DNA from: Crossaster papposus
Lineage: Eukaryota; Echinodermata; Asteroidea; Velatida; Solasteridae
NCBI GenBank assembly: GCA_037893245.1
Contig: JBAIAA010000902.1
Span: forward strand, 186,001-250,000
Direction: 5' to 3'
Length of the DNA stretch: 64,000 nucleotides
Under the pieces are notes generated by a model. It saw nothing but the letters and a program-made list of their open reading frames with translations, did not search any database and had not been told where the DNA came from. The position numbers were made by a program, and so were the translations under genes. Shown in pieces: positions 11,733 through 64,000 of this stretch (positions are counted from its first letter, which is position 1; each line of letters starts with the position of its first letter).

Positions 11733-11940
11733 GTTAGCGTTAGCGTTAGCGTTAGCGTTAGCGTTAGCGTTAGCGTTAGCGTTAGCGTTAGCGTTAGCGT
11801 TAGCGTTAGCGTTAGCGTTAGCGTTAGCGTTAGCGTTAGCGTTAGCGTTAGCGTTAGCGTTAGCGTTAGCGTTAGCGTTAGCGTTAGCGTTAGCGTTAGC
11901 GTTAGCGTTAGCGTTAGCGTTAGCGTTAGCGTTAGCGTTA
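11733..11940 (+). repeat. Telomere-like (TTAGCG)n array, left of spacer copy 1
   Basis: About 34 perfect hexamers, written GTTAGC in register, differing from the animal telomere unit TTAGGG by one base. It runs straight into the spacer, sharing the bases TAG with the spacer sequence at 11939-11941. No TTAGGG unit is seen inside. Confidence 0.95.
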
Positions 11941-11972
11941 GATATTCTGATATTATTCCGAAAAATTGAATT

Positions 11973-12089
11973 TTATAAAACAAAACTCGCGATCGCCAGA
12001 CGGCGAGCGCGAAAAAACAATAACAACATAAGAATAACTGCTCGACGCCGGTTGAAAACAAACGCTGTTTTTCGTGCTTTTCTAGGCAT
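11973..12089 (-). other. Short open frame, arginine-rich then leucine-rich
   Basis: A 38-codon frame from an ATG at 12089 begins MPRKARKTAFVFNRRR and continues into a hydrophobic stretch before TAA. It is identical in spacer copy 3 (45068-45184). It could be a tiny membrane-anchored peptide, a 5' fragment of a gene cut by the repeats, or chance. There is no coding support beyond the frame itself. Confidence 0.15.
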
Positions 12090-12262
12090 CCATGATAGTA
12101 AAACTTCGAACAGGTCATTTAAATGATATTTACTATAAAATACAACCCCCCAAATCCACCCATTCATGATAATTCAAGCAATTACAAATGGTGTACCCAA
12201 CCTTTAAATAAAACGTGTACTTAATTTTCTCTGCATTACATATTTAAATCATTTTCTGTTAC

Positions 12263-59800: not shown

Positions 59801-62800
59801 CTTCCAGTCCGTCCTTCCGTCCGTCCTTCCAGTCCGTCCTTCCGTCCGTCCTTCCAGTCCGTCCTTCCGTCCATCCTTCCAGTCCGTCCTTCCGTCCATC
59901 CTTCCAGTCCGTCCTTCCGTCCATCCTTCCAGTCCGTCCTTCCGTCCATCCTTCCAGTCCGTCCTTCCGTCCATCCTTCCAGTCCGTCCTTCCGTCCATC
60001 CTTCCAGTCCGTCCTTCCGTCCATCCTTCCAGTCCGTCCTTCCGTCCATCCTTCCAGTCCGTCCTTCCGTCCATCCTTCCAGTCCGTCCTTCCGTCCATC
60101 CTTCCTGTCCGTCCTTCCGTCCATCCTTCCAGTCCGTCCTTCCGTCCATCCTTCCAGTCCGTCCTTCCGTCCATCCTTCCAGTCCGTCCTTCCGTCCATC
60201 CTTCCAGTCCGTCCTTCCGTCCATCCTTCCAGTCCGTCCTTCCGTCCATCCTTCCAGTCCGTCCTTCCGTCCATCCTTCCCGTCCGTCCTTCCGTCCATC
60301 CTTCCGTCCATCCTTCCCGTCCGTCCTTCCGTCCATCCTTCCAGTCCGTCCTTCCGTCCATCCTTCCAGTCCGTCCTTCCGTCCATCCTTCCAGTCCGTC
60401 CATCCTTCCAGTCCGTCCATCCTTCCAGTCCGTCCTTCCGTCCATCCTTCCAGTCCGTCCTTCCGTCCATCCTTCCAGTCCGTCCTTCCGTCCATCCTTC
60501 CAGTCCGTCCTTCCGTCCATCCTTCCAGTCCGTCCTTCCGTCCATCCTTCCAGTCCGTCCGTCCTTCCGTCCATCCTTCCAGTCCGTCCGTCCTTCCGTC
60601 CATCCTTCCAGTCCGTCCGTCCTTCCGTCCATCCTTCCGTCCATCCTTCCAGTCCGTCCTTCCGTCCATCCTTCCAGTCCGTCCTTCCGTCCATCCTTCC
60701 AGTCCGTCCTTCCGTCCATCCTTCCAGTCCGTCCTTCCGTCCATCCTTCCAGTCCGTCCTTCCGTCCATGCTTCCAGTCCGTCCTTCCGTCCATCCTTCC
60801 AGTCCGTCCATCCTTCCAGTCCGTCCATCCTTCCAGTCCGTCCTTCCGTCCATCCTTCCAGTCCGTCCTTCCGTCCATCCTTCCAGTCCGTCCTTCCGTC
60901 CATCCTTCCAGTCCGTCCTTCCGTCCATCCTTCCAGTCCGTCCTTCCTTCCAGTCCGTCCTTCCGTCCATCCTTCCAGTCCGTCCTTCCGTCCATCCTTC
61001 CAGTCCGTCCATCCTTCCAGTCCGTCCTTCCAGTCCGTCCTTCCGTCCATCCTTCCAGTCCGTCCTTCCGTCCATCCTTCCAGTCCGTCCTTCCGTCCAT
61101 CCTTCCAGTCCGTCCTTCCAGTCCGTCCTTCCGTCCATCCTTCCAGTCCGTCCTTCCGTCCATCCTTCCAGTCCGTCCTTCCGTCCATCCTTCCAGTCCG
61201 TCCTTCCGTCCATCCTTCCAGTCCGTCCTTCCGTCCATCCTTCCAGTCCGTCCTTCCGTCCATCCTTCCAGTCCGTCCTTCCGTCCATCCTTCCAGTCCG
61301 TCCTTCCGTCCATCCTTCCAGTCCGTCCTTCCGTCCATCCTTCCAGTCCGTCCGTCCTTCCGTCCATCCTTCCAGTCCGTCCATCCTTCCGTCCATCCTT
61401 CCAGTCCGTCCTTCCGTCCATCCTTCCAGTCCGTCCTTCCGTCCATCCTTCCAGTCCGTCCTTCCGTCCATCCTTCCAGTCCGTCCTTCCGTCCATCCTT
61501 CCAGTCCGTCCTTCCGTCCATCCTTCCAGTCCGTCCTTCCGTCCATCCTTCCAGTTCGTCCGTCCTTCCGTCCATCCTTCCAGTCCGTCCGTCCTTCCGT
61601 CCATCCTTCCAGTCCGTCCTTCCGTCCATCCTTCCAGTCCGTCCTTCCGTCCATCCTTCCAGTCCGTCCTTCCGTCCATCCTTCCAGTCCGTCCTTCCGT
61701 CCATCCTTCCAGTCCGTCCGTCCTTCCGTCCATCCTTCCAGTCCGTCCGTCCTTCCGTCCATCCTTCCAGTCCGTCCGTCCTTCCGTCCATCCTTCCAGT
61801 CCGTCCGTCCTTCCGTCCATCCTTCCAGTCCGTCCTTCCGTCCATCCTTCCAGTCCGTCCTTCCGTCCATCCTTCCAGTCCGTCCTTCCGTCCATCCTTC
61901 CAGTCCGTCCTTCCGTCCATCCTTCCAGTTCGTCCGTCCTTCCGTCCATCCTTCCAGTCCGTCCGTCCTTCCGTCCATCCTTCCAGTCCGTCCGTCCTTC
62001 CGTCCATCCTTCCAGTCCGTCCTTCCGTCCATCCTTCCAGTCCGTCCTTCCAGTCCGTCCTTCCAGTCTGTCCTTCCGTCCGTCCTTCCGTCCATCCTTC
62101 CAGTCCGTCCTTCCATCCATCCTTCCAGTCCGTCCTTCCGTCCATCCTTCCAGTCCGTCCTTCCGTCCATCCTTCCAGTCCGTCCTTCCGTCCATCCTTC
62201 CAGTCCGTCCTTCCGTCCATCCTTCCAGTCCGTCCTTCCGTCCATCCTTCCAGTCCGTCCTTCCGTCCATCCTTCCAGTTCGTCCGTCCTTCCGTCCATC
62301 CTTCCAGTCCGTCCGTCCTTCCGTCCATCCTTCCAGTCCGTCCTTCCGTCCATCCTTCCAGTCCGTCCTTCAGTCCATCCTTCCAGTCCGTCCTTCCAGT
62401 CCGTCCTTCCGTCCGTCCTTCCAGTCCGTCCTTCCAGTCCGTCCTTCCAGTCCGTCCTTCCGTCCATCCTTCCAGTTTGTCCTTCCGTCCATACTTCCAG
62501 TCCGTCCTTCCGTCCATCCTTCCAGTCCGTCCTTCCGTCCATCCTTCCAGTCCGTCCTTCCGTCCATCCTTCCAGTCCGTCCTTCCGTCCATCCTTCCCG
62601 TCCGTCCTTCCGTCCATCCTTCCAGTCCGTCCTTCCGTCCATCCTTCCAGTCCGTCCTTCCGTCCATCCTTCCAGTCCGTCCATCCTTCCAGTCCGTCCT
62701 TCCGTCCATCCTTCCAGTCCGTCCTTCCGTCCGTCCATCCTTCCAGTCCGTCCTTCCGTCCATCCTTCCAGTCCGTCCTTCCGTCCATCCTTCCAGTCCG

Positions 62801-63808
62801 TCCTTCCGTCCATCCTTCCAGTCCGTCCTTCCGTCCATCCTTCCAGTCCGTCCTTCCGTCCATCCTTCCAGTCCGTCCTTCCGTCCATCCTTCCAGTCCG
62901 TCATTCCGTCCATCCTTCCAGTCCGTCCTTCCGTCCATCCTTCCAGTCCGTCCGTCCTTCCGTCCATCCTTCCAGTCCGTCCGTCCTTCCGTCCATCCTT
63001 CCAGTCCGTCCGTCCTTCCGTCCATCCTTCCAGTCCGTCCTTCCGTCCATCCTTCCAGTCCGTCCTTCCGTCCATCCTTCCAGTCCGTCCTTCCGTCCAT
63101 CCTTCCAGTCCGTCCTTCCGTCCATCCTTCCAGTCCGTCCTTCCGTCCATCCTTCCAGTCCGTCCTTCCGTCCATCCTTCCAGTCCGTCCTCCGTCCATC
63201 CTTCCAGTTCGTCCGTCCTTCCGTCCATCCCTCCAGTCCGTCCGTCCTTCCGTCCATCCTTCCAGTCCGTCCTTCCGTCCATCCTTCCAGTCCGTCCTTC
63301 CGTCCATCCTTCCAGTCCGTCCTTCCGTCCATCCTTCCAGTCCGTCCTTCCGTCCATCCTTCCAGTCCGTCCGTCCTTCCGTCCATCCTTCCAGTCCGTC
63401 CGTCCTTCCGTCCATCCTTCCAGTCCGTCCGTCCTTCCGTCCATCCTTCCAGTCCGTCCTTCCGTCCATCCTTCCAGTCCGTCCTTCCGTCCATCCTTCC
63501 AGTCCGTCCTTCCGTCCATCCTTCCAGTCCGTCCTTCCGTCCATCCTTCCAGTCCGTCCTTCCGTCCATCCTTCCAGTCCGTCCTTCCGTCCATCCTTCC
63601 AGTCCGTCCTTCCGTCCATCCTTCCAGTCCATCCTTCCAGTCCGTCCTTCCTTCCAGTCCGTCCTTCCGTCCATCCTTCCAGTCCGTCCTTCCGTCCATC
63701 CTTCCAGTCCGTCCTTCCGTCCATCCTTCCAGTCCGTCCTTCCGTCCATCCTTCCAGTCCGTCCGTCCTTCCAGTCCGTCCGTCCTTCCATCCTTCCGTC
63801 CGTCCTTC
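47877..63808 (+). repeat. 25-bp satellite, second array
   Basis: Same 25-bp unit as 31247-42965 with tetramer-step variants (13, 17, 29, 33 bp). Variant markers reveal higher-order units: a CATGCTTCC marker alternating at 851 and 275 bases between 54630 and 57733, and larger offsets of about 6.7 kb and 20.6 kb. No unique DNA or gene is seen inside. Confidence 0.96.
54630..57733 (+). repeat. 1126-bp higher-order unit in exact tandem
   Basis: The G of the rare CATGCTTCC variant lies at 54630, 55481, 55756, 56607, 56882 and 57733. Steps are 851, 275, 851, 275, 851, so the higher-order unit is exactly 1126 bases. Stretches such as 55086-55505 and 56212-56631 translate identically, as expected from near-identical copies. 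Confidence 0.92.
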
Positions 63809-63961
63809 CAGTCCGTCCATCCTTCCAGTCCGTCCATCCTTCCAGTCCGTCCATCCTTCCAGTCCGTCCATCCTTTCAGTCCGTCCATCCTTCCAGTCCG
63901 TCCATCCTTCCAGTCCGTCCATCCTTCCAGTCCGTCCATCCTTCCAGTCCGTCCATCCTTC
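63809..63961 (+). repeat. 17-bp array, nine units
   Basis: Nine copies of CAGTCCGTCCATCCTTC, one with CTTTCAG. This is the 25-bp unit without its central CTTC and CGTC tetramers. It has no counterpart at the 42.96-kb transition. Confidence 0.95.
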
Positions 63962-64000
63962 CAGTCCGTCCATCCATCCATCCAATCCGTCCATCCATCC
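63962..64000 (+). repeat. Start of a second 21-bp array, cut by window end
   Basis: One full 21-bp unit and 18 bases of a second (with CAATC for CAGTC). It equals the unit at 42966-43112, so the next macrosatellite turn seems to begin here. Confidence 0.85.

Follow-up and report, generated by a model that had tools for sequence, protein, structure and literature searches.

The stretch of Crossaster papposus DNA analysed here, 64,000 nucleotides of contig JBAIAA010000902.1 (C902:186,001–250,000, hereafter the window), holds part of what we read, with a probability of about three in four, as a composite macrosatellite. Short satellites in a fixed order surround a 1,955-bp spacer that lies between TTAGCG and TTAGAG hexamers, and the whole would grow by exchange and local expansion and be copied as blocks. 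On a second contig, C1414, a kilobase-size unit is present in several head-to-tail copies, and its components keep a constant order. Unequal crossing-over or gene conversion would add and remove whole turns of the array, the short arrays inside a turn would change in length by slippage and small tandem duplications, and blocks including neighbouring DNA would be copied to other loci. The short satellites of a turn are mostly NTCC tetramers on the pyrimidine strand, and a GC skew of about −0.6 along the tetramer arrays marks a strong strand asymmetry.

C1414 (138,579 bp) carries the array from 15,341 to about 133,260 (about 118 kb), with unique sequence on both sides. There are four complete turns in tandem plus a partial fifth, all with the same order of arrays. 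The junctions between 9-mer and TTAGCG arrays lie at 22,208, 55,001, 75,868, 99,178, and 126,100, and all five read CAGTC|GTTAGC. In turns 1–4 the spacer is followed by TTAGAG/TTAGCG, tetramers, 8-mer, 25-mer, 21-mer, and 9-mer arrays; turn 4 has its 25-mer/21-mer/9-mer part twice, and the last arrays of the partial fifth turn, next to the right flank, are tetramers and 8-mers. The complete turns measure 32,793, 20,867, 23,310, and 26,922 bp. Runs of pure 8-mer that are 100 bp or longer measure 1.5, 3.2, and 8.5 kb within turn 1 but 0.10–0.18 kb in later turns, and the main 25-mer blocks of turns 1–4 measure 11.8, 16.2, 18.7, and 19.5 kb, which bears out an earlier remark, made from the letters of the window, that array lengths differ between turns while the order is kept.

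The same preliminary description had spoken of a 33-kb macrosatellite of nested satellites and a spacer. Its composite build is found again at C1414, and the core order on eight further contigs, but there is no single 33-kb unit at a single locus: 33 kb fits the longest turn only, next to 20.9, 23.3, and 26.9 kb on C1414 and 3.8 kb on another contig, C356, where two spacer copies start 3,773 bp apart. Turn length thus ranges about ninefold, from 3.8 kb (C356) to 32.8 kb (C1414), and a constant unit length was not found.

Two contigs overlap closely with C1414. C902 shares a left flank of 12,819 bp with C1414 without a difference, and a single mismatch is found between them in the 33,529 bp that follow the beginning of turn 2. 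C1134, read in reverse, has spacer spacings of 20,831, 23,253, and 26,866 bp against 20,831, 23,316, and 26,862 bp in C1414; compared over three 4.6-kb pieces (99.6, 100, and 100%) and 6,000 bp at the right edge (without difference), it appears to hold turns 2–5 as well. Its left end (C1134:452001–460904) departs from C1414, with a short 7.3-kb turn, the 8-mer variant GTCCTTTC, and other unique DNA, and represents either another haplotype or a misjoin. Redundant contigs of this kind, together with noise patches that mark poorly resolved stretches of the assembly, would suit the view that every turn after the first is a false duplication. However, the C1414 turns differ in array lengths and most of their spacers by 1–5 substitutions (two are alike), the same core order occurs on contigs with other surroundings, and the two C356 turns of the same build lie 3.8 kb apart, all of which makes an assembly artefact most improbable.

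The search for the spacer covered 1,023,315,904 bases in 1,841 contigs and, with 40 of 4,714 first-look candidates scored, gave at least 41 scored matches, spread over 13 contigs. Surroundings were read on 10 of the 13 (all but C226, C489, and C1716) and for some of the copies there, namely two of eight on C356 and, on C593, one plus the last 246 bp of another. Besides C902 and C1414, these contigs are C1134, C356, C593, C116, C334, C67, C950, and C355. In all eight, 9-mer, hexamers, spacer, hexamers, and tetramers follow in the same order, and in seven the spacer has its full 1,955 bp with identical ends; the C355 spacer is a fused copy (1–1707 + 713–1955). The preliminary description had said that a spacer scattered in unrelated contexts would speak against its view; among the copies read, which are part of the at least 41 matches, none lay outside such arrays. 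The junction reads CAGTC|GTTAG at C1134, C334, and C67, CAGTC|GGTAG at C593 and C950, CCA|AGCG at C356, and CCAG|GCG at C355, and is unmatched at C116.

Judging by their sequences, some of the spacer contigs may be alleles of one another, such as C593 and C950, with spacers one substitution apart, and C334 and C67, with spacers five apart. The right flank of C1414 is common to C355; that of C1134 matches C355 at 99.6% over 3.3 kb and then in 98–100% pieces across 8.9 kb, with about 1.5 kb unmatched, and C355 may be the other, contracted allele. The flank recurs in diverged form at C116 (88% over 225 bp). Adjoining the array in the right flank of C1414 (stretch L026, 4200–4880) is a minus-strand frame of 224 amino acids with NHL repeats (E 2e-8).

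Divergence was compared in an alignment of 13 spacer copies, without the partial C1414 27.0-kb and C593-edge copies, the fused C355 copy, and the redundant C902 and C1134 copies. Substitutions number 0–5 among the five C1414 copies and 1 between the two C356 copies, as against 3–15 between contigs (5 for C334 and C67), the pair C593/C950 with 1 being the exception. One site separates the five C1414 copies from the eight others. The 25-mer blocks of turns 2–4 are 0.997–1.000 identical over their first 600 bp and 0.962–0.973 over their last 600 bp, where the background maxima, from 40 comparisons each, are 0.953 for 901-bp windows of the interiors and 0.958 for 600-bp comparisons of ends with interiors. 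By these edge identities, turns 2–4 seem to have been copied recently from one another as whole units, and their 25-mer interiors look as if changed by local duplications, for example an exact match of 1,870 bp at offset 1,126 inside the 25-mer array. Unequal crossing-over together with slippage would account for such a pattern.

Several observations weigh against this account of a macrosatellite that grows by exchange and is copied as blocks. The 25-mer edges of turn 1, at 0.910–0.938, are not above background, so that its common origin with turns 2–4 rests on array order and spacer. Spacer differences within and between loci overlap, as C593 and C950 differ by 1, and the spacer at the left end of C1134 is 3–6 substitutions from the C1414 copies and 3–4 from those of C356 and C116. 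A 21-mer block was labelled at C902, C1414, and C1134, and none was labelled in the C356 or C593 stretches. C902, C1414, and C1134 are one locus assembled redundantly and are not independent witnesses. The longest stop-to-stop frame of the spacer, 129 amino acids, was reached by only 7 of 300 shuffles, so that the spacer may once have been coding. Finally, all evidence is the sequence of one genome, from which the mechanism is inferred.

Within the window, where all features are given on the plus strand, the array begins at 4,850, and not at 11,733 as first described, with a 9-mer array (CCAGTCCAC / CCAGTCCAT, 4,850–11,731) whose single-base indels at about 9,001–10,700 are assembly error. The TTAGCG hexamers follow (11,732–11,941), then spacer copy 1, which lacks about the first 292–295 bp (11,942–13,603), the TTAGAG/TTAGCG array (13,604–13,882), and a block of mixed tetramers to about 15,074 that passes into the pure 8-mer GTCCTTCC (13,883–16,532). 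A block at 16,533–18,081 repeats part of this succession, first with a partial spacer copy 2, which reaches 17,521, and next with TTAGAG/TTAGCG and the first of the tetramers. Turn 1 continues with tetramers and an 8-mer array, again GTCCTTCC (18,082–31,249), which includes a GCCCTTCC sub-block at about 22,040–22,670 and, at 22,841–31,240, indels that are assembly error. The 25-mer array TCCGTCCTTCCGTCCATCCTTCCAG (31,250–42,950), the 21-mer array (42,951–43,110), and a 9-mer array of CCAGTCCAT with a AGCCCATCC sub-block (43,111–44,552) close the turn. Turn 2 starts with TTAGCG (44,553–44,741) and comprises the full-length spacer copy 3 (44,742–46,697), TTAGAG/TTAGCG (46,698–46,923), tetramers with a short 8-mer array (46,924–47,864), the 25-mer array (47,865–63,960), and the start of the 21-mer array (63,961–64,000), which continues to about C902:250,120.

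Much of the preliminary description agrees with this map. The arrays it named are present at the coordinates it gave, the junction CAGTC|GTTAGC is kept at 11,732 and 44,554 as it is on C1414, and the window does end as the 21-mer reappears, at about 63,960 and on past its edge (C902:249,961–250,120 and beyond). The 33,095-base distance given for spacer copies 1 and 3 is exact over 11,939–12,692; further along the offset is 33,094 or 33,096, and the identity of the two copies is 99.64% over 1,661 bp. The order from 11.7 to 44.6 kb and its restart, put at 44555 and found at about 44,553–44,554, also stand, but that order is not traversed once, since 12,621–14,163 recurs at offset 3,918. This 3.9-kb duplication had been passed over, as had the patches of noise and the left-edge transposon.

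The recurrence is an exact tandem duplicate of 1,543 bp (12,621–14,163 and 16,539–18,081) to which spacer copy 2 (16,533–17,521) belongs, itself identical to copy 1 over 983 bp. Through it, part of the spacer, the TTAGAG/TTAGCG array, the tetramers, and the 8-mer are present twice in turn 1. The exact matches at offsets 3,918 and 1,126 point to recent local duplication.

The lengths of some arrays in the window are affected by the quality of the assembly. Single-base indels number 32 per kb at 9,001–10,660 and 20 per kb at 22,841–31,240, as against none at 4,860–9,000 and 15,075–16,530. In the second patch, 104 irregular stretches in C902 face 1 in the matching part of C1414, with no common pattern, and in the 9-mer array 37 face 2, each of these four counts including one cut-edge fragment. 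A plain count of indels is insufficient for such a call, because the 25-mer blocks have 36 and 42 per kb and the stretch 43,320–44,550 has 18 per kb, and there the tokens show unit-length changes of 4 bases. Since the homologous C1414 stretches are clean, the indels of both patches (about 9.0–10.7 and 22.8–31.2 kb) are, on this comparison, consensus error, and the lengths there are inexact; a real degeneration of the 8-mer and 9-mer arrays is ruled out by the same clean stretches. Noise is also present in C1414, in other patches at about 48–49 and 109–116.5 kb, and this contig differs from C902 by 8 mismatches and 77 gap bases in 11.9 kb of the turn 1 25-mer array and by 54 gap bases in 5.8 kb of that of turn 3. 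In a human assembly, passages of PMC9186530 report a loss of accurate long-read coverage in GA-rich sequence, and a similar loss may have caused the C902 patches. False variation in assembled pyrimidine/purine-strand arrays is a warning for satellite studies, and here a second copy was needed as a control.

Positions 1–4849 of the window are, judging by their sequence, part of a Chapaev-type DNA transposon, of which the 3′ part lies in the window and the truncated 5′ part to its left. A single exon (823–1131) matches DUF1280 (PF06918, E 3.7e-17), which passages of PMC3985635 assign to Chapaev transposases, in one clade with RAG1. Further open reading frames extend over about 235–3376, and the 15-bp terminal inverted repeat AGTGAAACTGCCGTG lies at 4835–4849. 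Left of the window, the transposon encodes a RING domain (E 8.1e-7) that matches 40 PDB sequences, among them RAG1 at 1.4e-4, behind BRCA1 at 1.4e-5, and the neighbouring frame has a below-threshold match to the RAG1 importin-binding family (E 0.052); these matches suggest a weak likeness to RAG1.

A related transposon at C67:849671–856076 is whole in outline, with CACGGCAGTTCCACT and the inverse of CACGGCAGTTTCACT as its ends, 6,406 bp apart. These terminal inverted repeats match at 14 of 15 positions and start with CAC, as Chapaev transposon ends do; only the outer 15 bp match well, and a 900-bp alignment of the ends scores 86 against a highest shuffle of 80. The target-site duplication of Chapaev transposons is 4 bp long, and the repeated TCCA at C67 may be such a duplication. 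It keeps the phase of the 9-mer arrays that lie on both sides of the transposon, in a target that is itself periodic. Left of the transposon, C67:845501–849670 holds tetramers, the 14-mer TCCTATCGTTAGCG, which fuses tetramer and hexamer words, the 10-mer GTCCAGTCCC, and the 9-mer. By analogy with C67, the left array edge of the window would have arisen when a Chapaev-type transposon inserted into a 9-mer array and was later truncated.

The C902 and C67 transposons are 99.3–99.7% identical in three pieces, with 23 substitutions in 5,581 bp, and the C902 copy has two extra stretches of about 165 bp. Their homology ends at C902:185,019, beyond which C902 has other DNA; the window copy is thus without its 5′ part and the array beyond. 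In the stretch left of the window (L012, of which 9019–10000 is C902:185019–186000), a 14-mer array of 112 copies at 100% lies at 660–2228, and 12.4 copies of a 212-bp unit at 2643–5262.

The spacers of the two loci differ by 12–15 substitutions per 1,955 bp, a divergence of the same order as that of the transposons, which suits joint copying. Such a likeness in degree, the abutment of transposon and array in the same phase at C902 and C67, and the recurrence of the right flank at C355 (99.6% over 3.3 kb) and, diverged, at C116 are what might be expected if the whole block were a giant mobile element, a RAG-clade Chapaev transposon with the satellite array as cargo. However, the transposon at C67 is bounded by terminal inverted repeats of its own, separated by 6,406 bp, and has arrays on both sides, which puts the array outside the transposon; the right flank, examined over 8.9 kb at C1134 and 8.65 kb at C355, showed no terminal motif, and the C355 sequence may simply be the other allele. 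We therefore regard a giant mobile element as unlikely. A satellite block dispersed by, or with, a RAG-clade (Chapaev) transposon that moves or seeds arrays of up to about 100 kb seems very unlikely. On the composite-macrosatellite reading that we prefer, the Chapaev element is distinct from the satellite, either next to it or inserted in it, and its window copy is truncated.

The left-edge element resembles Chapaev transposons in its DUF1280 match and its CAC terminal repeats, and it may share their 4-bp target duplication. Its RAG1-like feature is the RING domain, with RAG1 among the weak matches, and N-RAG-TP of Aplysia, reported as a RAG1-N-terminal-like transposon (passages of PMC8355894), is a possible counterpart. 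It could be of use for the question of the RAG1 N-terminus.

The spacer is of full length with identical ends on seven of the eight further contigs read, while the arrays vary, as would be seen if selection kept it in a functional array, either centromeric or pericentromeric or built of promoter-bearing units like D4Z4. On the other hand, Rfam gave no match at gathering score and no tRNA was found in the window, three spacer frames had no Pfam match up to E 0.1, and recent copying explains the high spacer identity; we consider a functional array highly unlikely. On five contigs a copy sits inside a contig of 1.0–1.8 Mb, which has little weight either way on function. The idea that the spacer might itself be a terminal-inverted-repeat transposon was rejected, because its best end-to-end score was 24, below the highest of 50 shuffles (48). 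Most likely, from its sequence, the macrosatellite is non-coding and has no sequence-encoded function beyond being satellite DNA.

A single contig covers the present satellite together with both its flanks, and along it the sub-arrays keep their order and vary greatly in length. Because order is kept while lengths vary, whole-unit exchange can be separated from the local expansion of short arrays, with which it is usually confounded. Composite tandem repeats have been described from ape sex chromosomes and from the sheep Y centromere (passages of PMC11168930 and PMC11436988), and these share with the present satellite a tandem unit of several different components. In these passages the sheep unit has 2.5 kb and consists of a short and a long interspersed nuclear element (SINE and LINE) between two DNA segments, whereas a turn of the present satellite consists almost wholly of short arrays on the pyrimidine strand, about eight kinds of them in a constant succession; the make-up of the ape repeats is not given in the passages of PMC11168930 and PMC11436988. 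The earlier opinion that no described repeat has this composite build was hence too strong as to kind. As to the build itself, a search of open-licence literature gave composite repeats of mammals and none with this build among the matches listed, and among those listed in a literal search for GTCCTTCC none concerned this 8-mer.

Human composite elements were reportedly treated by Hoyt et al. 2022. The D4Z4 and DXZ4 macrosatellites consist of kilobase-size tandem units of nearly constant length, and D4Z4 holds a gene; the present satellite has kilobase-size tandem units as well, but their length varies and no coding is shown for them. Human satellites 2 and 3 likewise form extended arrays whose short units are strand-asymmetric and stem from a simple repeat, but they are not known to have, as the present satellite does, a unique spacer with distinct arrays in set order around it. 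Composite tandem repeats being a known kind, the satellite described here is best filed as a variant of them, because its unit length is not constant.

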